Of a stretch of DNA of 44,838 nucleotides, positions 4,206 to 13,814 are shown piece by piece. Source of the DNA: Rhodospirillales bacterium (GTDB lineage Bacteria > Pseudomonadota > Gammaproteobacteria > Burkholderiales > Burkholderiaceae_D); assembly GCA_903970305.1 (NCBI GenBank), contig CAJCID010000238.1:1-44838 (forward strand), read 5' to 3'. Position 1 is the stretch's first letter; every line of letters begins with the position of its first letter. The notes beneath the pieces were generated by a model. The model ran no database searches. It was not told where the DNA came from and was given only the letters and a program-made list of their open reading frames with translations. Both the position numbers and the translations under genes were made by a program.

Positions 4206-4308
4206 GCAACTCGGCGCCGGCAGGCCATGACGAATGCGATGGCAGCGCGGTCAAGTATGGGAGCAGCAGCGACAAGAGACTCACCTAATACCAAGAGGAG
4301 CTGGAGAC

Positions 4309-5628
4309 ATGAAGAGACTGACTAGGCGGAAATTTTTGATGACCTCGGCCGGCGTCGCCGCAGCATCCGCGCTCGGGCACCCGGTGCGCGCGGCCACGGC
4401 AGGGACCCCGTTGCGCTATCCACCCGAGACCGGAGCGAAGCTTAGGGTGTTGCGCTGGAAACGCTTCGTCCAAGGTGACGAGGACCTGTGGCTTGCCAAC
4501 ACGAAGAAATTCACGGACCAGACCGGTATCGAGGTCCGCATCGACAATGAGGGTTGGGAGGACGTGCGGCCCAAGGCCGCCGTCGCGGCCAACGTAGGCA
4601 GTGGCCCTGACATCATCCTGGGCTGGTTTGACGATCCGCACCAATACCCCGACAAACTGGTCGATCTGACGGACCTGGCCGATTACCTGGGCAGCAAGTA
4701 CGGGGGCTGGTACGACGTGTGCCGCAACTACGGCACGCGCCAGGGACGCTGGATCGCGATACCCCTGGGCATCATCGGCAACGCCCTGGTCTATCGGGAC
4801 AGCCAGCTGAAAGCAGCCGGATTCGAGACGATGCCGCGCGACACGGGAGGGTTCCTCAAGCTCTGCCAGGCTTTGCAGGCCAAGGGAACCCCCGCGGGCT
4901 TCGCTCTGGGCAAGGCCGTCGGTGATGCGAATAACTGGGCCCATTGGCTCGTCTGGTCTCATGGGGGCAAGATGGTCGATGACCAGGGGAGTGTGGTGAT
5001 CAATTCCCCCGAGACCTGGGCCGCGCTGGAGTATGCGAAACAACTCTACGCGACGTTCATTCCGGGGACCCTTTCGTGGCAGGACCCCTCGAACAACAAG
5101 GCCTTTCTCGACGGGCAGATCAGCCTGACTGCGAACGGCATCTCGATCTACTACGCCGCGAAGAACTCGCCCGAAGCGGCCTTGCAGGACATGGCCCGCG
5201 ACATCCAGCATGCGCGCTTTCCGATCGGGCCCGTGGGCAAGCCTACCGAGCTCATGCAGATCACGCAGATGATGCTCTTTAAGTACAGCAAGTATCCCAA
5301 CGCGGCGAAGTCCTACATCCAGTTCATGATGGAGGCAGGGCAGTACAACCCTTGGATGGAAGCGGCGATTGGCTACGTCAGTCAGCCTTTGAAGGCCTAT
5401 GAGGCCAATCCGGTGTGGACAGCCGATCCGAAGGCCACGCCGTACCGCGATGGCGGCAGCATCATGCTCGAACATGGCTATTCGGGACCGCTCGGCTATT
5501 CCTCTGCGGCGGTCATGGCCGACTACGTGATGGTGGACATGGTGGCTGAGGCCGCGACGGGTGCCAAGACCCCCAAAGAGGCTGCGCAGCGGGCGGCGCA
5601 GCGGGCCGAGCGCTACTACAAGGTATAA
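4309..5628 (+). CDS. Tat-exported extracellular sugar-binding protein of the ABC importer
   Basis: 439 residues from the ATG at 4309, which has a good ribosome binding site (AGAGGAG, 4294-4300). The N-terminus shows a twin-arginine signal (TRRKFLM at residues 5-11), a hydrophobic stretch and a likely AxA-type cleavage site near residues 25-30. There is no lipobox cysteine, so a soluble periplasmic protein is expected. The mature part is a family 1 solute-binding protein (GPDIILGW, IPLGIIGNALVYRD, and the AFLDGQISLTANG core). Its ligand is probably a sugar or sugar acid matching the upstream catabolic genes. It is followed by a GC hairpin (5644-5666) before the first permease. The frame extends to 4234, but that start lacks support. 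Confidence 0.9.
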   Translation: MKRLTRRKFLMTSAGVAAASALGHPVRAATAGTPLRYPPETGAKLRVLRWKRFVQGDEDLWLANTKKFTDQTGIEVRIDNEGWEDVRPKAAVAANVGSGPDIILGWFDDPHQYPDKLVDLTDLADYLGSKYGGWYDVCRNYGTRQGRWIAIPLGIIGNALVYRDSQLKAAGFETMPRDTGGFLKLCQALQAKGTPAGFALGKAVGDANNWAHWLVWSHGGKMVDDQGSVVINSPETWAALEYAKQLYATFIPGTLSWQDPSNNKAFLDGQISLTANGISIYYAAKNSPEAALQDMARDIQHARFPIGPVGKPTELMQITQMMLFKYSKYPNAAKSYIQFMMEAGQYNPWMEAAIGYVSQPLKAYEANPVWTADPKATPYRDGGSIMLEHGYSGPLGYSSAAVMADYVMVDMVAEAATGAKTPKEAAQRAAQRAERYYKV

Positions 5629-5643
5629 GCGCCCACGACGCGA

Positions 5644-5666
5644 CCGGCCCCAAAAAAGGGGGCCGG
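5644..5666 (+). repeat. GC-rich stem-loop between binding protein and permease genes
   Basis: An 8-bp perfect stem, CCGGCCCC (5644-5651) with GGGGCCGG (5659-5666), closes a loop of AAAAAAG. It lies 16 nt after the binding-protein stop and about 57 nt before the permease start. No T-run follows, so it is more likely an mRNA-stabilising or partial-termination element, as is known for binding-protein/permease junctions such as malE-malF, than a full terminator. Confidence 0.55.
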
Positions 5667-5722
5667 GCAGGGGTAGACCTTCGGGCCGCCAGCGCGGTCC
5701 GGTCAACCGAACGAGGTGCAGG

Positions 5723-6622
5723 GTGCTGTCTCGCTGGCTGAACAATCGCAACGTGCTGGGCCTGATCTTCATGCTTCCGGCCGCGGCGCTGCTCCTGACC
5801 TTTCTGACCTATCCGCTCGGTCTGGGGGTCTGGCTTGGCTTTACCGATGCGAAGATCGGGAGGGCAGGTCATTGGATCGGCCTTGAGAACTACCAGTTTC
5901 TCGCGACCGATCCGGTTGCGCTCCTGTCGCTGTTCAACACGGTCTTCTATACGGTCGTGGCGAGCGTCTTCAAGTTCGCATTGGGCTTGTGGCTGGCGAT
6001 CCTGCTCAACGAGAAACTGCCTTTCAAGGCGGTATTGCGAGCCGTGGTATTACTGCCTTGGATCGTGCCCACGGCCCTGTCCGCGCTCGCCTTCTGGTGG
6101 ATGTACGACGCGCAGTTTTCGGTGATCAGCTGGGTGCTGGTGCGTTTCGGCCTGATCCATCGGTACATCGACTTTTTGGGGGATCCGTGGCTCGCACGCG
6201 GCTCGACGATCGTCGCCAACATCTGGCGCGGCGTACCGTTCGTTGCGATCTCGCTCTTGGCGGGACTGCAGACCATCTCCCCTTCGCTCTATGAGGCGGC
6301 CGCGATCGACGGCGCCACAGCACTGCAGCGCTTTCGCTATATCACCCTGCCACTCTTGACTCCGATCATCGCAGTCGTGATGACCTTTTCGGTGCTGTTC
6401 ACCTTCACCGACTTCCAGTTGATCTACGTGCTCACGCGAGGGGGGCCCCTGAACGCGACACACCTGATGGCGACCTTGGCCTATCAGCGGGCCATTCCTG
6501 GCGGCTCCCTCGGAGAGGGTGCCGCATTGTCGACGGCGATGGTCCCCTTCCTCTTGGCGGCGATCCTATTTTCCTACTTCGGCCTGCAAAGGCGTGGTTG
6601 GCAGCAAGGCGGGGACAAGTGA
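5723..6622 (+). CDS. Sugar ABC transporter permease 1 (MalF/UgpA type)
   Basis: 299 residues from a GTG at 5723, preceded by GAGGT at 5713-5717. The frame is open to 5561 inside the previous gene, but that would add an unlikely Arg/Pro-rich extension, and MalF/UgpA-type permeases usually start just before the first helix. About six transmembrane helices are visible, the first starting at NVLGLIFMLPAAALLL. The cytoplasmic EAA loop that contacts the ATPase is EAAAIDGATALQRFRYITLP. The stop overlaps the next start (GTGA at 6619-6622), indicating translational coupling with the second permease. Confidence 0.92.
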   Translation: MLSRWLNNRNVLGLIFMLPAAALLLTFLTYPLGLGVWLGFTDAKIGRAGHWIGLENYQFLATDPVALLSLFNTVFYTVVASVFKFALGLWLAILLNEKLPFKAVLRAVVLLPWIVPTALSALAFWWMYDAQFSVISWVLVRFGLIHRYIDFLGDPWLARGSTIVANIWRGVPFVAISLLAGLQTISPSLYEAAAIDGATALQRFRYITLPLLTPIIAVVMTFSVLFTFTDFQLIYVLTRGGPLNATHLMATLAYQRAIPGGSLGEGAALSTAMVPFLLAAILFSYFGLQRRGWQQGGDK

Positions 6623-7488
6623 AACACCAGGACGACCAGGCGGGCATGGCGTATCTGGAGAGCCTGCCCCGTCGCTGGGTGACGATTTATGTGCCGCTGG
6701 GCGTGTTCCTGTTCGTGCTGCTTTTTCCGTTCTACTGGATGTGCGCGACGGCGCTCAAGCCCAACGACGAACTGCTCTCGCACGCCTCTAATCCGTTTTG
6801 GGTCAAGGCTCCCACTCTGGCGCATTTCAAACATCTGCTCTTCGAGACGCCCTATCCGGACTGGATGCTCAACACCATCCTGGTGTCGACCGCGGCCACG
6901 TTCACCTCCCTTTTTGCGGCGGTGCTGGCGGCCTACTCGATCGAGAGGCTGCGCTTTCAGGGTTCGCGCCAGGTCGGTATGGGGATCTTTCTTGCCTACC
7001 TCATCCCTCCCTCGATTCTCTTCATCCCGCTGGCCGCGATCGTGTTCCGGCTCGGCCTGTTCGATACGCGCTGGGCGCTGATCCTCACCTATCCGACGTT
7101 TCTGATCCCGTTTTGCACGTGGCTGCTGATGGGTTACTTCCGGTCCATTCCCTATGAACTCGAAGAGTGCGCGCTGATCGACGGTGCGACGCGACTGCAG
7201 ATTCTCGTGAAGATCATCCTGCCCCTTTCGGTACCGGGCCTGATCTCAGCCGGGATTTTCGCATTTACCCTGTCCTGGAACGAGTTCATCTATGCGCTGA
7301 CCTTCATTTCGTCCTCGGAGATCAAGACCGTCCCGGTCGGTGTGGTGACCGAGCTTGTCGAGGGCGATGTTTACCACTGGGGTGCGCTGATGGCGGGGGC
7401 GCTTCTCGGGTCTTTGCCCGTGGCGGTGATCTACTCGTTCTTCGTCGAATACTACGTGTCGGGTATGACCGGAGCGATCAAGGAGTAG
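6619..7488 (+). CDS. Sugar ABC transporter permease 2 (MalG/UgpE type)
   Basis: 289 residues. The GTG start overlaps the preceding stop (GTGA), with an AAGGCGGGG ribosome binding site at 6606-6614. Six transmembrane helices are expected (for example VTIYVPLGVFLFVLLFPFYWM). The EAA loop reads EECALIDGATRLQILVKIILP, so the second position of the EAA triad is changed but the distal GxxxxxxxxxxLP pattern is intact. It completes the CUT1 importer. Its last 11 bp overlap the 3' end of the convergent alpha/beta hydrolase gene, leaving no room for a dedicated terminator. Confidence 0.92.
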   Translation: MKHQDDQAGMAYLESLPRRWVTIYVPLGVFLFVLLFPFYWMCATALKPNDELLSHASNPFWVKAPTLAHFKHLLFETPYPDWMLNTILVSTAATFTSLFAAVLAAYSIERLRFQGSRQVGMGIFLAYLIPPSILFIPLAAIVFRLGLFDTRWALILTYPTFLIPFCTWLLMGYFRSIPYELEECALIDGATRLQILVKIILPLSVPGLISAGIFAFTLSWNEFIYALTFISSSEIKTVPVGVVTELVEGDVYHWGALMAGALLGSLPVAVIYSFFVEYYVSGMTGAIKE

Positions 7489-8635
7489 CGCCGGCGGCCA
7501 GGAAAGGTACCAGGGCGGCCTCGAAAGCGTCGGGCGCCTCGAGATGGGGGATGTGGCCGACATCAGCTACTTCGACCACGCGCACGTGGGCGATCGCCGC
7601 AGCGGCGGCCCGTGCCAGCCTCGGAAAATCGCCCAGGGTCTCGGCCCGGCCCGGGCGGGCGGCTGACTTGCCCGGGGCCGTGCGATCGCGCGCTCCATAG
7701 ATGAGCAGCACGGGCATCTGGAGCTCATCGAGCTCGTACACCACGGGTTCCTGGTAAATCATCTGTGAGGTCAGCGCCTGGGCGCGGGCGAAGCGGGGAT
7801 ACTCCCCGCTGCCCATCAGTCTCACGTACGGCTCCACCAGCTCATGCTCGAACTCTTCAGACCAATGGACGAAGTACCCCTGGACGTAGCGCCGATAGGA
7901 TTCCGCCGTGACCGAAAGCTGTTGCTGAACGAGGCTCTCTGTGCTTTGCGGAGGGATCGAGCGCCGATAGTCTTCCAGTCCGATGGGATCCTCGAGCACG
8001 AGTCGCTCGACATGCTCTGGATAGCTCAGCGCGAATCGGATCGCAAGCATTCCGCCAGTCGAGTGCCCCACAACCAGGGCACGCGCGATGTGGAGGTGAT
8101 CGAACAAGGTCAAGGTGTTCTGGGCAAGGAGATCGAAGCTGTAGGCGAGATCGGGTTTGGACGACTTGCCAAAGCCGATCTGGTCGGGCACCACGACCCG
8201 ATAGCCCGCGTTGATGAGCGTGCGTACGGTTCTGTCCCAATAGAAGCCCGCGAAGTTCTTGCCGTGAAGCAGGACCACCGTGTGCCCGTTGGCCGCGCCC
8301 GTGGGCGGGATGTCCATGTAGGCCATGCGCACGCTCTGGCCGTCGTTGACGAGTTCCAGAAAGTGCACCGGGAAAGGGTAGGTCCATGCCTCAAGTCCGA
8401 TGCCAAGGGCGACCGGATAGCGCGGCTCTTCGGTCGCGGACCCTGCTGCGAGTGCCCCGCGTGGTCCAGACACTTCGCCCAGCGCGAGCAGACAAACCAC
8501 CAACCCGATCATTGCAATCTTGCGCTGCGTTGTGGCGTGTGGTGAATGAGACGCAGGGGCTTCGATTCGGTGCAAAATGCGGCGAAGCAGAGGTATCCTG
8601 AGCATAAACAGACCCAACCTTTTGCGAGGAAGCAT
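7478..8635 (-). CDS. Exported alpha/beta hydrolase
   Basis: 385 residues if started at 8635. The catalytic triad of an alpha/beta-hydrolase fold is visible: Ser192 (GHSTGG), Asp317 (GARDRTAPG) and His361 (VGHIPHLEAP), with the oxyanion-hole HG in VVLLHGKNF. An N-terminal hydrophobic segment (IAMIGLVVCLLALG) ending near an ALAAG site suggests export. The start is uncertain. ATG at 8635 leaves only 33 bp to the divergent kinase start; ATG at 8605 would shorten the long N-region; neither has a clear ribosome binding site. The ester, amide or lactone substrate is unknown. The - strand frame is open far upstream to 10033, but that part is antisense to the kinase and not credible as coding. Confidence 0.8.
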   Translation of the reverse strand: MLPRKRLGLFMLRIPLLRRILHRIEAPASHSPHATTQRKIAMIGLVVCLLALGEVSGPRGALAAGSATEEPRYPVALGIGLEAWTYPFPVHFLELVNDGQSVRMAYMDIPPTGAANGHTVVLLHGKNFAGFYWDRTVRTLINAGYRVVVPDQIGFGKSSKPDLAYSFDLLAQNTLTLFDHLHIARALVVGHSTGGMLAIRFALSYPEHVERLVLEDPIGLEDYRRSIPPQSTESLVQQQLSVTAESYRRYVQGYFVHWSEEFEHELVEPYVRLMGSGEYPRFARAQALTSQMIYQEPVVYELDELQMPVLLIYGARDRTAPGKSAARPGRAETLGDFPRLARAAAAAIAHVRVVEVADVGHIPHLEAPDAFEAALVPFLAAGATP

Positions 8636-8668: not shown

Positions 8669-11641
8669 ATGGATCTGGGCAGCCGGATTGCCCCAGAAGA
8701 GCCGTCGCCTCTCGGGCGCTGGGACGTCTCGGTGAGCCCAACCCTCGCCGGCCCGATGTCGATTCAGAGGCGCGTCCTGATGGCTTTGGGGGTTGCGCTG
8801 GCCTGTCTTGTGGCGCTCGCATGGGTGGCCGCCCAGCGCTACACGGAACAGCTCGAAGCGCAGGAATGGACACTCCACACCTATCAGATCCTGGCAGAAC
8901 TCAATCTGCTCGAAGCCCAGCTTGATCGCGACCGCGGGAGTGCCTACTGTGCCTTGTCGGGTAGTCGCGCCTTTCTCTATCACGACCGCGCAGGGAGCGA
9001 CTATGAAAGTCACTACCGCCAGTTGTTGACTCTCACGCACGACAATCCCAACCAGATTCGCCTTCTTGCCGCGCTCGATGAGGACTGGATGCGTTGGAAT
9101 AACCAGTATCGTATTCCGCTCCAGGCGGCCTGCGACCTGGGCCCGGGCCTTGCGCGACCCAGTCAGGCCGAACTCGATCGCTTGGGCGCCCAGGGAGAGG
9201 TCCTCAGACGGGCGATCCTGGCTCGATTGGGTGCCATGACGCAGATCGAACGCGAACTGGCCTCGCAGCGCCATGCGCGCCAGGAACATCTTGGGCAGCA
9301 GACCCAGGACTGGCTCATCGCTCTGGGGATTCTCTCGGTCCTCTTGGCCTTTCTGACCGGCTCCTCGCTGCTGCGCGCAGCCAACTTTCAGGATGCGGCA
9401 CAACGCTCCCTTGAAGGTGAGATCGAACAACGCCGTATCATCGAGAAGCGCCTGAAGGATTCCGAGAGCCGCGTGCGTTCGGTGCTCGACAATGTGCCCG
9501 ATGGCATCATCACGATCGACGAGGAAGGAATCATCGAATCCTTCAATCCTTCGGCCGAGGCGATCTTTGGTTATCTGGCGGAGGACGTCATCGGTCGCAG
9601 CGTGAACATGCTGATGCCCGATCCCTACCGCTCCGCCCACGGCGGCTTTATGGAACGCTACGCGAAGACCGGTGAGACGCGCATCATGGGCAAGCGGCGC
9701 GAACTGGCCGGCCAGCGAGCTGACGGGACGCGCTTCGACCTGGACCTTGCGGTGACCGAGATGAGTCTGGATGGAGAGCGGCTCTTCACCGGGATCGTGC
9801 GCGACGTTTCCGAGAAAAAGCGCCAGAGCACCGAGATCCAGCGTTTCAAGACCACGCTGGACAACACCCTTGACATCATCTTTATGTGTGACCCGGTCAG
9901 CCTGAAGTTTGTCTATGTCAATCGCGGTGCCAAGCAGGCGCTGGGCTACAGCGAGGAGGAATTGCTCCAGATGCGCGCCAGCGATCTGACCCCGGCGCTT
10001 CCTGAACACGTGTTCCGCTCCCATGTCGCGCAATTACTCTCCGGCGAGAGGCACTGGTTAAGCTATGAGACCGTGCAGCGCCGCAGCGACGGATCAGAAC
10101 TGCCCACCGAGGTCTTCCTCCAGCTGGTCCAGGACAATCCGAGCGATCAGGGCTTGTTCATCGGCATCGCGAGGGATCTGACCGAGCGCCGCCGCGTCGA
10201 CCGCTTGAAGAGTGAATTTATCTCCGTGGTCAGCCATGAGCTCAGGACCCCTCTGACGAGCATTCGCGGCTCGCTTGGACTTCTGGTCGGCGGTGCGGCG
10301 GGAGACCTTCCCGAGCGTTCGCGCCGGATGGTCGAGATCGCCCACCACAACAGCGAGCGCCTGGTCCGGCTCATCAACGACATGCTCGACATGGAGAAGA
10401 TCGAGTCGGGCAAGATGCGCTTTGATCTGCGTCCCCTCGAGGTCAGCCACCTGGTGCAGCATGCCCTCGAGGTGAACCGCGGCTATGGCACCGAGTACCA
10501 GATCGAGTTCGTGGCCGAGCCAGGCAGCGCCAACGAACGGGTCTATGGCGACTTCGACCGCTTGATTCAGGTGATGAGCAACCTCTTGTCGAATGCGGCC
10601 AAGTTCTCGCCACCGGGCGGGCAGGTCCGGGTGGCCGTGACGCGCCGCGACGATCTGGTCCGGATCGCCGTGGCCGATCATGGTCCGGGGATCGCCGACG
10701 AATTCAGGCGCCATCTGTTCAAGCGCTTTTCTCAAGCCGATACCTCGGATGCGCGCCAGAAGGGCGGCACCGGGCTGGGCCTGTCCATCTGCAAGGCGAT
10801 CATCGAGCGTCACGATGGGGTGATCGGCTTCGAGACGGAGGTGGGGATCGGTTCGACCTTCTGGTTTGATCTTCCCGTCTGGCAGAGCCCTGCACGCATG
10901 AACCATGACCTCGATGGAGAGGCGCCCCGCATCCTCGTGTGCGATGACGATCCCGACGTCGCCCTGGTCCTGACGGGGATGCTGCATGAAGCAGGCTACG
11001 AGACCGACGTGGCCTACTCCGCAGAGGAGGCTCGTCGGCTGCTCTCTTCCCATCGCTACGCATTGATGACGCTGGACATCCGACTTCCCGGGCAGGACGG
11101 GATCTCGCTGATTCGGGAGCTAAGCCGCCCCGACGTGGTCTGGATGAAGCTGCCGATCATCGTGGTCAGCGGGCATGATAGTGGCCATGGTCATGAGTTT
11201 GCCAGCGGCCATGCTGTACTGGACTGGCTTGCCAAACCGATCGATCGGGATCGACTGATCGCCGCGACCCGCCGGGCCGTGCGGGGTGCGCACTCAAAGG
11301 TGCGCATTCTGCACGTCGAAGACGATGCCGACGTGCGCAAGGTGCTGGCCACTCTGGTGGGCAACGAGGTCGAGGTAACCGGGGCCGAAAGTGTCGCGCA
11401 GGCAACGAGTCTTCTCGGGCGCTCGACCTTCGATCTGGTGGTGCTCGATGTCGGGCTGCCCGACGCGTCGGGTCTGGCCCTCTTGCCCCGCATGCAAGGG
11501 CTCAACGCGCATACCCCGGTCCTGGTGTTCTCCGCCCACGATCCGTCTCCCGAACTCGCCGAACGCGTCGCGGCCGCCCTGGTGAAGTCGCGCACGTCCA
11601 ACCACCAGTTGCTCGATATGGTGCGTCGGCTGGTCGCCTGA
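8669..11641 (+). CDS. Membrane hybrid histidine kinase: CHASE3-like, FixL-like PAS, PAS, HisKA-HATPase, two receivers
   Basis: 990 residues from ATG 8669 (AGGGCGG at 8654-8660); ATG 8756 is an alternative. Layout: TM1 about 35-55; a periplasmic CHASE3-like helical domain about 58-210 (conserved LTHDNPNQIRLL); TM2 215-235; PAS1 about 265-380; PAS2 393-510; HisKA with His523 (SHELRTPL); HATPase with NLLSNAAKFSPP and GGTGLGLSI; receiver 1 with Asp803; receiver 2 with Asp927. PAS1 closely follows the heme PAS of FixL (SVNMLMPDPYRSAHGGF, then RADGT and a FTGIVRD end). It keeps the proximal heme His (His324) and the equivalents of Bradyrhizobium FixL Arg206 and Arg220 (Arg330, Arg344); His214 is replaced by Arg338. 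Oxygen or redox sensing is inferred, not shown. It leads a run of relay genes. Confidence 0.9.
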   Translation: MDLGSRIAPEEPSPLGRWDVSVSPTLAGPMSIQRRVLMALGVALACLVALAWVAAQRYTEQLEAQEWTLHTYQILAELNLLEAQLDRDRGSAYCALSGSRAFLYHDRAGSDYESHYRQLLTLTHDNPNQIRLLAALDEDWMRWNNQYRIPLQAACDLGPGLARPSQAELDRLGAQGEVLRRAILARLGAMTQIERELASQRHARQEHLGQQTQDWLIALGILSVLLAFLTGSSLLRAANFQDAAQRSLEGEIEQRRIIEKRLKDSESRVRSVLDNVPDGIITIDEEGIIESFNPSAEAIFGYLAEDVIGRSVNMLMPDPYRSAHGGFMERYAKTGETRIMGKRRELAGQRADGTRFDLDLAVTEMSLDGERLFTGIVRDVSEKKRQSTEIQRFKTTLDNTLDIIFMCDPVSLKFVYVNRGAKQALGYSEEELLQMRASDLTPALPEHVFRSHVAQLLSGERHWLSYETVQRRSDGSELPTEVFLQLVQDNPSDQGLFIGIARDLTERRRVDRLKSEFISVVSHELRTPLTSIRGSLGLLVGGAAGDLPERSRRMVEIAHHNSERLVRLINDMLDMEKIESGKMRFDLRPLEVSHLVQHALEVNRGYGTEYQIEFVAEPGSANERVYGDFDRLIQVMSNLLSNAAKFSPPGGQVRVAVTRRDDLVRIAVADHGPGIADEFRRHLFKRFSQADTSDARQKGGTGLGLSICKAIIERHDGVIGFETEVGIGSTFWFDLPVWQSPARMNHDLDGEAPRILVCDDDPDVALVLTGMLHEAGYETDVAYSAEEARRLLSSHRYALMTLDIRLPGQDGISLIRELSRPDVVWMKLPIIVVSGHDSGHGHEFASGHAVLDWLAKPIDRDRLIAATRRAVRGAHSKVRILHVEDDADVRKVLATLVGNEVEVTGAESVAQATSLLGRSTFDLVVLDVGLPDASGLALLPRMQGLNAHTPVLVFSAHDPSPELAERVAAALVKSRTSNHQLLDMVRRLVA

Positions 11642-11670
11642 ACCCTGCGCCCCCCGCTTCCTACTCGCCC

Positions 11671-12093
11671 ATGCAACTCCGACGCATTCTGTATGTCGAA
11701 GACGACACCGATATCCGCGACGTCGTCGCGTTGGCGCTGGAAGTCGTGGGTGGACTGGAGGTGTGTCTGTGCGCCTGCGGTAAGGATGCGCTTCAGGCCG
11801 CAATCGACTTCCTTCCTGACCTGGTGGTGCTGGATGTGATGATGCCCGACATGGACGGTCCGGCAACCCTGGTGGCGCTGCGCCGCTTGCCTGAACTCGC
11901 CCAGGTGCCGGTGGTGTTCATGACCGCCAAGGTCCAGCCGAGCGAAGTGGCCGAGTTCCTGAGCCTGGGCGCAGTGGACGTCGTCGCCAAGCCTTTTGAT
12001 CCGATGACGCTGGCCGATTCGCTGCGCCAGATCTGGCGGCGGCTCGAGAGTGAGAGACGGGACCAGAAACCTGGCTTTCCAGAGGATAATTGA
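11671..12093 (+). CDS. Stand-alone receiver-domain protein (CheY-like response regulator)
   Basis: 140 residues forming one receiver domain and a short charged tail. The acidic pair is EDD at residues 10-12, the phospho-acceptor is Asp55 (LVVLDVMMPD), the conserved Thr lies in FMTAK and the conserved Lys in VVAKPFD. There is no output domain, so it should act as a phosphate relay or sink, or by protein contact. It begins 29 bp after the kinase stop without an obvious ribosome binding site. Its TGA overlaps the ATG of the HPt gene by one base (TGATG at 12091-12095). Confidence 0.92.
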   Translation: MQLRRILYVEDDTDIRDVVALALEVVGGLEVCLCACGKDALQAAIDFLPDLVVLDVMMPDMDGPATLVALRRLPELAQVPVVFMTAKVQPSEVAEFLSLGAVDVVAKPFDPMTLADSLRQIWRRLESERRDQKPGFPEDN

Positions 12094-12452
12094 TGGTCGA
12101 TGGATTCGACTTCGACGACAAATGGCGCCTCTTGCGGCAACGCTTCATCGCGCGCCTGCGGGAGAGGGAGCGCAACATCCGAAGCGCGTGGGAGCAGGTC
12201 CAGTCCGGGCGCGACGGTGACGGGGCTGCCCGCAACCTGCTGTTCCATCAGATCCACAGCCTTTCCGGCTCGGGGGCGACCTTTGGATGCGACGAACTCA
12301 GTGACGCAGCGCGTCGGATCGAGCCCATGATCGACCCGGAGCAGATCCCGCTTGCGCACCCGCTGGATCGAGAGGCGCTCCAGACGGTCGAAACCGCGCT
12401 GGAAGACCTCGTCCAGGAACTGCGCCGGATCTCGGCTGAGTCGGGACACTAA
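12093..12452 (+). CDS. Hpt (histidine phosphotransfer) domain protein
   Basis: 119 residues. The core HQIHSLSGSGATFG places the expected phospho-histidine at His55 (His52 is the upstream partner of the HxxH pattern), followed by the usual DELSDAARRIE helix. Hpt proteins shuttle phosphate between receiver domains. Here it could link the receivers of the hybrid kinase to the downstream FixJ-type regulator. The ATG overlaps the previous stop by one base, with AGAGGA at 12081-12086 as ribosome binding site; a TTG one codon earlier is possible. The family match is good, although the usual Lys after HSL is Ser. Confidence 0.85.
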   Translation: MVDGFDFDDKWRLLRQRFIARLRERERNIRSAWEQVQSGRDGDGAARNLLFHQIHSLSGSGATFGCDELSDAARRIEPMIDPEQIPLAHPLDREALQTVETALEDLVQELRRISAESGH

Positions 12453-12574
12453 GTATGCTGACCAGACCGTGCTCCAGAATGCTCTCTCGGGGAGGCGCCT
12501 TAGGCCAGGCCTTCGCGCAAGTGGTACATTCACCCATGCTGCGATGCCAAGGCTCCGACTCACTCCAAAGAGCC

Positions 12575-12604
12575 GTGACGCTGCGTGGCGCGTTGAGCTA
12601 TGCT
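12575..12604 (+). promoter_or_regulatory. Possible promoter for the FixJ-type regulator gene
   Basis: GTGACG (12575-12580) and TATGCT (12599-12604), separated by 18 bp, resemble a sigma70 promoter (4 of 6 positions match in each box). It lies in the 219-bp gap after the HPt gene and would allow expression apart from the kinase operon. Proposed from sequence only. Confidence 0.3.
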
Positions 12605-12622
12605 TGAGCCCAGTGTCGTTCC

Positions 12623-12671
12623 GGGAGGACGCTGTATGAACGAGGCCAGACCATGAGTTCTCCTCATTAGC
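12623..12671 (+). promoter_or_regulatory. Chained mini-ORF leader with possible masked Shine-Dalgarno, upstream of fixJ-type gene
   Basis: A strong GGGAGGA (12623-12629) sits 6 nt before an ATG at 12636 that encodes only six residues (MNEARP, stop at 12656). That stop overlaps the ATG (12653) of a second mini-ORF of five residues (MSSPH, stop TAG 12668-12670). The regulator ATG at 12672 follows after one base and has no ribosome binding site of its own. TCCTC at 12661-12665 could pair with GAGGA at 12625-12629 and hide the only Shine-Dalgarno. The arrangement suggests translation of the regulator by re-initiation or coupling. Confidence 0.4.
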
Positions 12672-13301
12672 ATGCCCCAACCCTACGCCATCCCGGTTCC
12701 TCCCGTCGTCTACGTCGTCGACGATGACGAGGCCATCCGCGAACTGGTGACCGAGATCGCCCGCTCGCTGCATGCCAACGCGCGTTCCTATGCGCGTGCC
12801 GCCGAGTTCCTGGAGGTGTATCGGCCGGAACCCATTGAGTGCCTTGTCGTCGACATCCGCATGCCGGAGATGAGTGGTCTGGACGTGCAAAAGAATCTGC
12901 TCGAACGCGGCATGTCGATTCCCACCCTTTTCATCACCGGCTACGGAGACGTCGGTACCGCCGTCGAGGCCATGCGGGCCGGGGCCCTCGACTATATCCA
13001 GAAGCCCTTTTTGCCGGAGGACCTGGCCGCCAAGATTCGCGCGGGCCTGGACCGATCGCGAACCCACTATCTCGCCTCGCTCGAACAAGACACGATCAAT
13101 GCCCGCTATTCGTTGCTCACGGTAAAGGAGCGCGAGGTCGCCCTTCGGGTCGTTGCGGGCAAGTCGAGCCGTGAGATCGCCGACGAGTTTGGCTTGAGCG
13201 TCAGAACCATCGAGAATCATCGGGCCCGCATCATGGACAAGCTGCACGCCGATTCGGTCGTCGAGTTAGTCCATCTTTTGACCACCCGCGTCAACGCTTA
13301 G
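12672..13301 (+). CDS. FixJ/TodT-type response regulator with LuxR-type DNA-binding domain
   Basis: 209 residues. The N-terminal receiver has the acidic pair in VDDDEAIRE, phospho-acceptor Asp61 (VVDIRMPEMSG), the ITGYGDV switch segment and a conserved Lys in YIQKPF. The FixJ-specific layout is very clear. The C-terminal LuxR-type helix-turn-helix is LTVKEREVALRVVAG, then EIADEFGLSVRTIENHRARIMDKL. It should be the transcriptional output of the phosphorelay encoded upstream. ATG 12672 is the only reasonable start, and it lacks a Shine-Dalgarno (see the mini-ORF leader). The nearest downstream + strand gene is the HiPIP, 201 bp away. Confidence 0.93.
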   Translation: MPQPYAIPVPPVVYVVDDDEAIRELVTEIARSLHANARSYARAAEFLEVYRPEPIECLVVDIRMPEMSGLDVQKNLLERGMSIPTLFITGYGDVGTAVEAMRAGALDYIQKPFLPEDLAAKIRAGLDRSRTHYLASLEQDTINARYSLLTVKEREVALRVVAGKSSREIADEFGLSVRTIENHRARIMDKLHADSVVELVHLLTTRVNA

Positions 13302-13502: not shown

Positions 13503-13814
13503 ATGAAGAGTTCGCGCCGCATGTTCATTCTGCAGACTGCTGGAGTCGCCACGGCCCTGGGCCTGTCTCGAGCGGCCCTGGCCGACACACCCACGCTGGC
13601 TGAGTCGGATCCGACAGCGCAAGCTCTTGGATACAAGTCCGACGCAACCCAGGTCGACAAGGCCAAGTATCCCAAGTACGCGGCAGGTCAGATGTGCGCG
13701 AACTGCGTTCTGTATCAGGGCAAACCCGGCGACGCGTCTGGGCCCTGTCCGATCTATGCAGGCAAGGCGGTATCCTCCAAGGGATGGTGTTCCTCGTACG
13801 CCAAGAAGGCTTGA
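13503..13814 (+). CDS. hip: High-potential iron-sulfur protein (HiPIP), Tat-exported
   Basis: 103 residues from ATG 13503 with GGAG at 13492-13495. A twin-arginine signal (SSRRMFIL) and hydrophobic stretch end at an ALA site, giving cleavage after Ala27 and a mature protein of about 76 residues. Four cysteines in HiPIP spacing would hold the [4Fe-4S] cluster: Cys65, Cys68, Cys82 and Cys96, with the conserved LGY (Tyr44) and GWCSSY end. HiPIPs are periplasmic one-electron carriers feeding terminal oxidases or photosynthetic reaction centres. It stands alone between the sensory cluster and dacB. The frame is open upstream to 13419, but the Tat signal fixes the start. Confidence 0.95.
   Translation: MKSSRRMFILQTAGVATALGLSRAALADTPTLAESDPTAQALGYKSDATQVDKAKYPKYAAGQMCANCVLYQGKPGDASGPCPIYAGKAVSSKGWCSSYAKKA

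Follow-up and report, generated by a model that had tools for sequence, protein, structure and literature searches.

The window, by which we mean the whole stretch of 44,838 nt analyzed here, is one contig of a 4.33 Mb genome of 329 contigs, and four of its plus-strand genes encode a hybrid histidine kinase, a lone receiver, a lone HPt protein, and a FixJ-type REC-LuxR regulator (Table 1). To judge from their sequences, these proteins probably form a multistep phosphorelay (probability about 60%) in which a kinase–free receiver–HPt module of many proteobacteria works, in this small clade, with a FixJ-type output. Signals perceived in the periplasm by the CHASE3-like domain, and by the PAS domains, would set the autophosphorylation of the kinase histidine. 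Phosphate would pass from there over Asp55 of the lone receiver and the HPt histidine (in the motif FHQIHSLSGSG) to the FixJ-type regulator, whose receiver would accept it and which would then bind DNA. The receivers fused to the kinase would be accessory and act as a sink or brake. An earlier note on this DNA had read the same locus, with two receivers in the kinase, as a possibly oxygen-responsive FixL-FixJ pair that seemed to have been expanded into a relay; the four genes lie where it placed them, and it is the proposed origin that is not supported.

The His-Asp-His-Asp set of the locus is complete, comprising a kinase histidine, an intermediate receiver, an HPt histidine, and an output receiver with the catalytic residues present. 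Pfam recognizes two PAS domains, HisKA, HATPase, and two receivers in the kinase, with CHASE3 falling below its cut-off, and the regulator has the FixJ layout of a receiver and a LuxR-type helix-turn-helix. The ATG of the HPt gene overlaps the TGA of the lone-receiver gene.

Scanning one genome per species with an alignment of four HPt sequences yielded 35 named loci, three clade relatives included, and on the plus strand of each we counted kinase cores above 150 bits and lone receivers of at least 110 bits. A kinase core is encoded on the HPt strand in 19 of these loci and in the window, and all 20 have a lone receiver as well. The key residues of this receiver are intact in all 19 readable copies, whereas the lone receiver of L052, from a metagenome-assembled genome (MAG) of the same genus, is broken by an assembly gap (unread bases, X, at L052:4204-4497 and just before 4533). 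In 19 of the 35 loci and in the window, the lone receiver either lies at most 100 nt 5' of the HPt or is joined to it; in a betaproteobacterial MAG, the two form one open reading frame (ORF) of 275 amino acids (L080:7301-8125). Four Polaromonas loci have the HPt first and the lone receiver after the kinase. Six of the 20 kinases lack fused receivers or have degenerate ones: L056, L057, L058, L069, and L080 have none, and in L053 receiver 1 has no Asp at the acceptor column and receiver 2 reaches 5 bits, with a Gly at that place by eye. Despite these degenerate fused receivers, the lone receiver, HPt, and regulator of L053 are intact. Since a lone receiver accompanies every one of the 20 same-strand kinases, 6 of which have no intact fused receivers, we infer that the intermediate is usually the lone receiver, the fused ones being accessory. 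The variants devoid of fused receivers amount to a natural test of the obligatory receiver in a hybrid-kinase relay.

The same loci also bear on the origin of the output. In 19 of the 35, the HPt ORF additionally contains a GG[DE]EF motif and receiver matches (the former assigned by motif, not by Pfam), and the full arrangement of kinase, lone receiver, and an HPt ORF with receivers and GG[DE]EF is seen in L056 to L058, L060 to L063, L066, L069, L082, and L086. Because the HPt is joined to GGDEF in so many of them, the FixJ-type regulator looks like a swapped output and not like part of an expanded FixLJ system; simple FixLJ ancestry was considered and rejected since the HPt, the receiver, and the kinase core are like those of the HPt-REC-GGDEF type of module. 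In a family relative (L169), a different REC protein follows the HPt, so outputs look exchangeable. The curated models, too, speak against an expanded FixLJ: The kinase scores 208.3 bits against the FixL model NF041777 (cut-off 850) and the regulator 177.4 bits against the FixJ model PRK09390 (cut-off 255), which is still its best NCBIfam model. Among the matches listed in the open-access literature, none concerned a kinase-lone REC-HPt-GGDEF arrangement, and "HPt-REC-GGDEF" and its spellings returned no papers.

Several observations weigh against this relay. L070:9726-11189 encodes, on the minus strand, a related kinase core with two receivers (266 bits), and the stretch around it shows no lone receiver of at least 110 bits; with both strands counted, a lone receiver is present in 20 of 21. 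L059, L078, L079, and L083 have a lone receiver beside the HPt and no kinase core above 150 bits in the stretch, and in the remaining loci both are below the thresholds, the lone receiver is elsewhere in the stretch (L072 and L074), or the stretches are short. In the window, L052, and L054, the Asp is retained in the fused receivers, so a route from the kinase over a fused receiver to the HPt is possible. The clade consists of four genomes spread over many contigs, and adjacency alone is weak evidence because the block downstream is syntenic too. Finally, the gap between the HPt and FixJ-type genes is 219 nt, and the regulator could have its own transcript or its own source of phosphate.

The conserved gene order that the earlier note had proposed to look for is kept in all four clade genomes, our own and three others from bogs: kinase, receiver, HPt, regulator, HiPIP, and the carboxypeptidase gene dacB follow each other, and the DUF883 gene is also in place in the three relatives. 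One of the contigs concerned (L053) is titled Mycobacteriaceae, yet it is syntenic with a contig titled Burkholderiales bacterium, and its title looks wrong. Searches with the HPt matched 16 of 60 relatives at 0.001, of which only the own genome (G000), G001, G020, and G035 fell below 1e-20; the same four were the strong ones among 10 of 392 family genomes matching at 1e-6. In a draw of 399 genomes of the order, 23 matched at 1e-6, the best besides our own at 2.3e-10, and G001, G020, and G035 were not among the matches of this draw. No HPt match was found in plasmids, and the regulator matched 4633 plasmid records, every one below 60% identity. A second FixJ-like regulator (41%) lies at a contig start of the same genome (L174:1-582, contig C256), its upstream neighbor being cut off.

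These comparisons also speak to the idea that the FixJ-type regulator stands outside the relay, served by another kinase, with the true output of the relay elsewhere. The intergenic gap fits it, as does an HPt that is not fused to an output, and the 54 PAS matches of the genome point to a large number of sensor proteins. However, the regulator is conserved beside the relay throughout the rest of the clade (89%, 75%, and 74% identity), and at 1e-50 such orthologues occur only in relay genomes (4 of 294 family genomes, own included), the fifth match having 45% identity and nothing above that value being found in the other 290 genomes searched. A regulator outside the relay seems improbable to us.

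The case for oxygen rests on PAS1. The earlier note had matched His324, Arg330, and Arg344 to H200, R206, and R220 of FixL, and this numbering is right. An AlphaFold2 model of PAS1 (predicted local distance difference test, pLDDT, of 85.3) overlays BjFixL (1dp6) with a Z score of 20.6 and a root-mean-square deviation (rmsd) of 0.9 over 113 residues, model residues 21-133 lying on chain residues 154-266 at constant offset, and it places the three residues accordingly; AlphaFold2 will presumably have met FixL structures during training, so that the model is not independent of them. All top thirteen structures in the fold comparison are FixL, which is also the best match among PDB sequences (5e-33) ahead of DosP. 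When scored with a profile built from two FixL PAS domains, PAS1 reaches 129.9 bits and clearly leads the 49 PAS stretches of the genome in likeness to FixL (next best 40.3; five of the 54 matches, below the Pfam cut-off, were left out). All this, together with a kept equivalent of FixL I215, would speak for an oxygen sensor with heme in PAS1, arisen by expansion of FixLJ, whose fused receivers relay to HPt and FixJ.

The distal pocket and the relatives of PAS1 point the other way. The distal residues of FixL, which we take to be Ile215, Ile218, Leu236, and Ile238, are not fully matched: The equivalents of I215 and L236 are kept, that of I238 is Val, and that of I218 is Lys342. I215 is presumably the counterpart of Ile209 in SmFixL. 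Against EcDOS (1vb6, offset 10 at both ends), the model aligns H324 with H77, K342 with M95, and R344 with R97; one study names H77 as the proximal ligand of EcDOS and M95 as coordinating the Fe(II) heme (PMC4263535). Ile209 of SmFixL is a conserved residue of the distal pocket that matters for O2 binding, according to another (PMC10765370). Position 218 is Lys in the window and Arg in L029 and L030, and the fourth member, L031 (same contig as L054), misses five PAS1 columns, His among them. In the class, a PAS match at an E value of 1e-20 or better occurs in 82 of 229 genomes (own included), many of which have several. For 34 FixL-like PAS domains in 29 loci (chosen, not randomly, as those with the top match of each of the 29 highest-ranking other genomes), His is found at position 200 in 32, Arg220 in 29, and both in 29; Arg at 206 in 9; and I, V, L, or A at 218 in 26, with K or R in 3. 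His together with Arg220 therefore marks a large PAS subfamily, and to go by sequence the His/Arg match is weak evidence of oxygen sensing.

Of the proposed heme-pocket oxygen input, the FixL-type fold, the His, and both Arg thus stand, and the oxygen part is weakened by the wide spread of the pattern, Lys or Arg in place of Ile218 in three clade members, and the loss of His in the fourth. Heme binding by PAS1 is in our judgment a real possibility with odds slightly on the negative side, and oxygen sensing through heme in the kinase is possible; the full reading as an expanded FixLJ oxygen sensor, which also has the missed FixL and FixJ equivalog cut-offs against it, is unlikely. A Lys at the position of EcDOS Met95 and a sister without the proximal His are reasons for caution in assigning oxygen sensing when the His/Arg pattern is all there is to go by.

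For the outer sensor, too, the earlier note was borne out in part, with its CHASE3 likeness supported and the Pfam cut-off missed: PF05227 matches nearly full-length (1-137 of 138) with 23.0 bits against a cut-off of 28. Residues 30-268 are modeled as all-helical (pLDDT 85.9), with transmembrane helices judged by eye, and the best PDB match is the sensor domain of R. palustris HK9 (3va9; Z score 13.9, rmsd 2.7, 122 residues), which is near the helical-bundle background. Matches to the sensor were found in 10 of 321 genomes of the class, own included. Cys94 and Cys155 are invariant in all four clade members although their sensors are only 31% to 64% identical to that of the window, and five more distant proteins among the matches listed have no Cys at either aligned place. 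The domain would hence seem CHASE3-like, with a Cys pair that appears to be clade-specific.

This pair raises the possibility that the CHASE3-like domain supplies the main input to the kinase, in the form of a periplasmic redox or small-molecule signal, with Cys94/Cys155 as a disulfide switch or brace and PAS1 as a structural relay without cofactor in the clade. Besides the invariance of both Cys within the clade and their absence farther away, the missing PAS1 His in L054 agrees with such a role; however, the comparison covers only four sequences, and three of the four keep the PAS1 His. We regard this as a credible alternative that is nonetheless less likely than not, and it is compatible with the phosphorelay proposed here. 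More of a long shot is a two-compartment redox sensor, in which the periplasmic dithiol pair and a FixL-type heme PAS would together drive the relay. Its distal Lys/Arg would serve as sixth ligand or as a charge gate that shifts the response from O2 to redox, NO, or CO, the FixJ-type output would control the adjacent HiPIP electron carrier, and one sister lineage would have dropped the heme arm and kept the relay.

HiPIP is tied to the relay by position only. In relatives it is found within a longer syntenic block, at L010:2852-3211 in a same-genus genome, L053:9250-9558, and L054:9243-9569. On the 3' side of HiPIP, Pfam identifies an S13 D-Ala-D-Ala carboxypeptidase (dacB) and then DUF883. 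No anaerobox (TTGAT-N4-ATCAA) occurs in the 44.8 kb window at 0 or 1 mismatch, and of 11 places at two mismatches the sole one within the relay genes is inside the kinase gene; no shared operator was seen in intergenic alignments of the four genomes. The kinase may possibly start at Met30 and not at the first called codon, as the L030 and L031 homologues have a candidate Met adjoining that place, and both also have Met codons further upstream. The Ser in the Lys column of fused receiver 2 perhaps reflects an alignment shift of one residue, with a Lys adjoining. On the 5' side of the kinase lie ABC transporter genes (a solute-binding protein and two permeases; 4234-7488) and, adjoining it on the minus strand, an alpha/beta hydrolase gene (7478-8422).

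Table 1. Features of the relay locus and adjoining HiPIP gene (positions in the window).
Feature	Position	Strand	Remarks
Hybrid histidine kinase	8669..11641	+	990 aa as first called; ORF open from 8546; start may be 8756
CHASE3-like sensor domain, residues 64-203	8858..9277	+	PF05227, below cut-off
PAS1, FixL-like	9440..9838	+	His324, Arg330, Arg344 at FixL H200/R206/R220; Lys342 at FixL I218 / EcDOS M95
PAS2	9842..10177	+	PF00989 match
HisKA and HATPase core, residues 514-737	10208..10879	+	Pfam
Fused receiver 1, residues 755-867	10931..11269	+	PF00072; acidic, Asp, Ser, and Lys columns filled
Fused receiver 2	11297..11638	+	Second PF00072 stretch; acidic residue and Asp present, Ser in Lys column
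Lone receiver	11671..12093	+	140 aa; Pfam Response_reg; Asp55; all four key columns filled
Lone HPt	12093..12452	+	ORF 12090-12452, ATG at 12093; PF01627, 41.7 bits
FixJ-type REC-LuxR regulator	12672..13301	+	209 aa; Response_reg (PF00072) and GerE (PF00196), both above cut-off
HiPIP gene	13503..13814	+	Adjoins regulator; PF01355, 94.6 bits

Single elements of this locus have precedents in known systems, whereas none of the matches listed in the open-access literature showed a FixL-like hybrid kinase combined with a free receiver, a free HPt, and a FixJ-type output. To our knowledge, neither an HPt nor a lone or fused receiver belongs to the classical FixL-FixJ pair. In the Spo0F-Spo0B-Spo0A relay of Bacillus, a free receiver passes phosphate to a phosphotransferase and on to a transcription regulator. 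Unlike there, the kinase of our locus has fused receivers, its HPt is a Pfam Hpt domain, and its output is of the FixJ/LuxR type; Spo0F itself is described as a single-domain intermediate in PMC9981736. With the FixL-FixJ systems of Bradyrhizobium and Sinorhizobium, and of Burkholderia dolosa (PMC5234846), the locus shares a FixL-type PAS fold, the proximal His, both Arg, and a REC-LuxR output; it differs in having Lys for Ile218 and in missing both curated cut-offs. The hFixL-FxkR system of rhizobia likewise has a FixL variant, called hybrid FixL, but FxkR is stated not to be a FixJ homologue, and the source does not mention an HPt (PMC7888657). NmpRSTU of Myxococcus xanthus is likewise a multi-component, oxygen-linked relay with a receiver-only protein, but it uses a globin sensor and an NtrC-like output, again with no HPt mentioned in the source (PMC11841059). 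HmrABCX (PMC11481889) is a further precedent for single elements. The same gene order, with a related kinase core (45% to 62%), lone receiver (50% to 63%), and HPt, is seen in the loci of Dyella, Nitrospirillum, Sulfuricella, and others, but their HPt ORF holds one or more receivers and GG[DE]EF and is likely a diguanylate cyclase instead of a DNA-binding output. Kinase, free receiver, and HPt would in this light be a cassette with a seemingly exchangeable output, be it GGDEF, FixJ/LuxR, or others.

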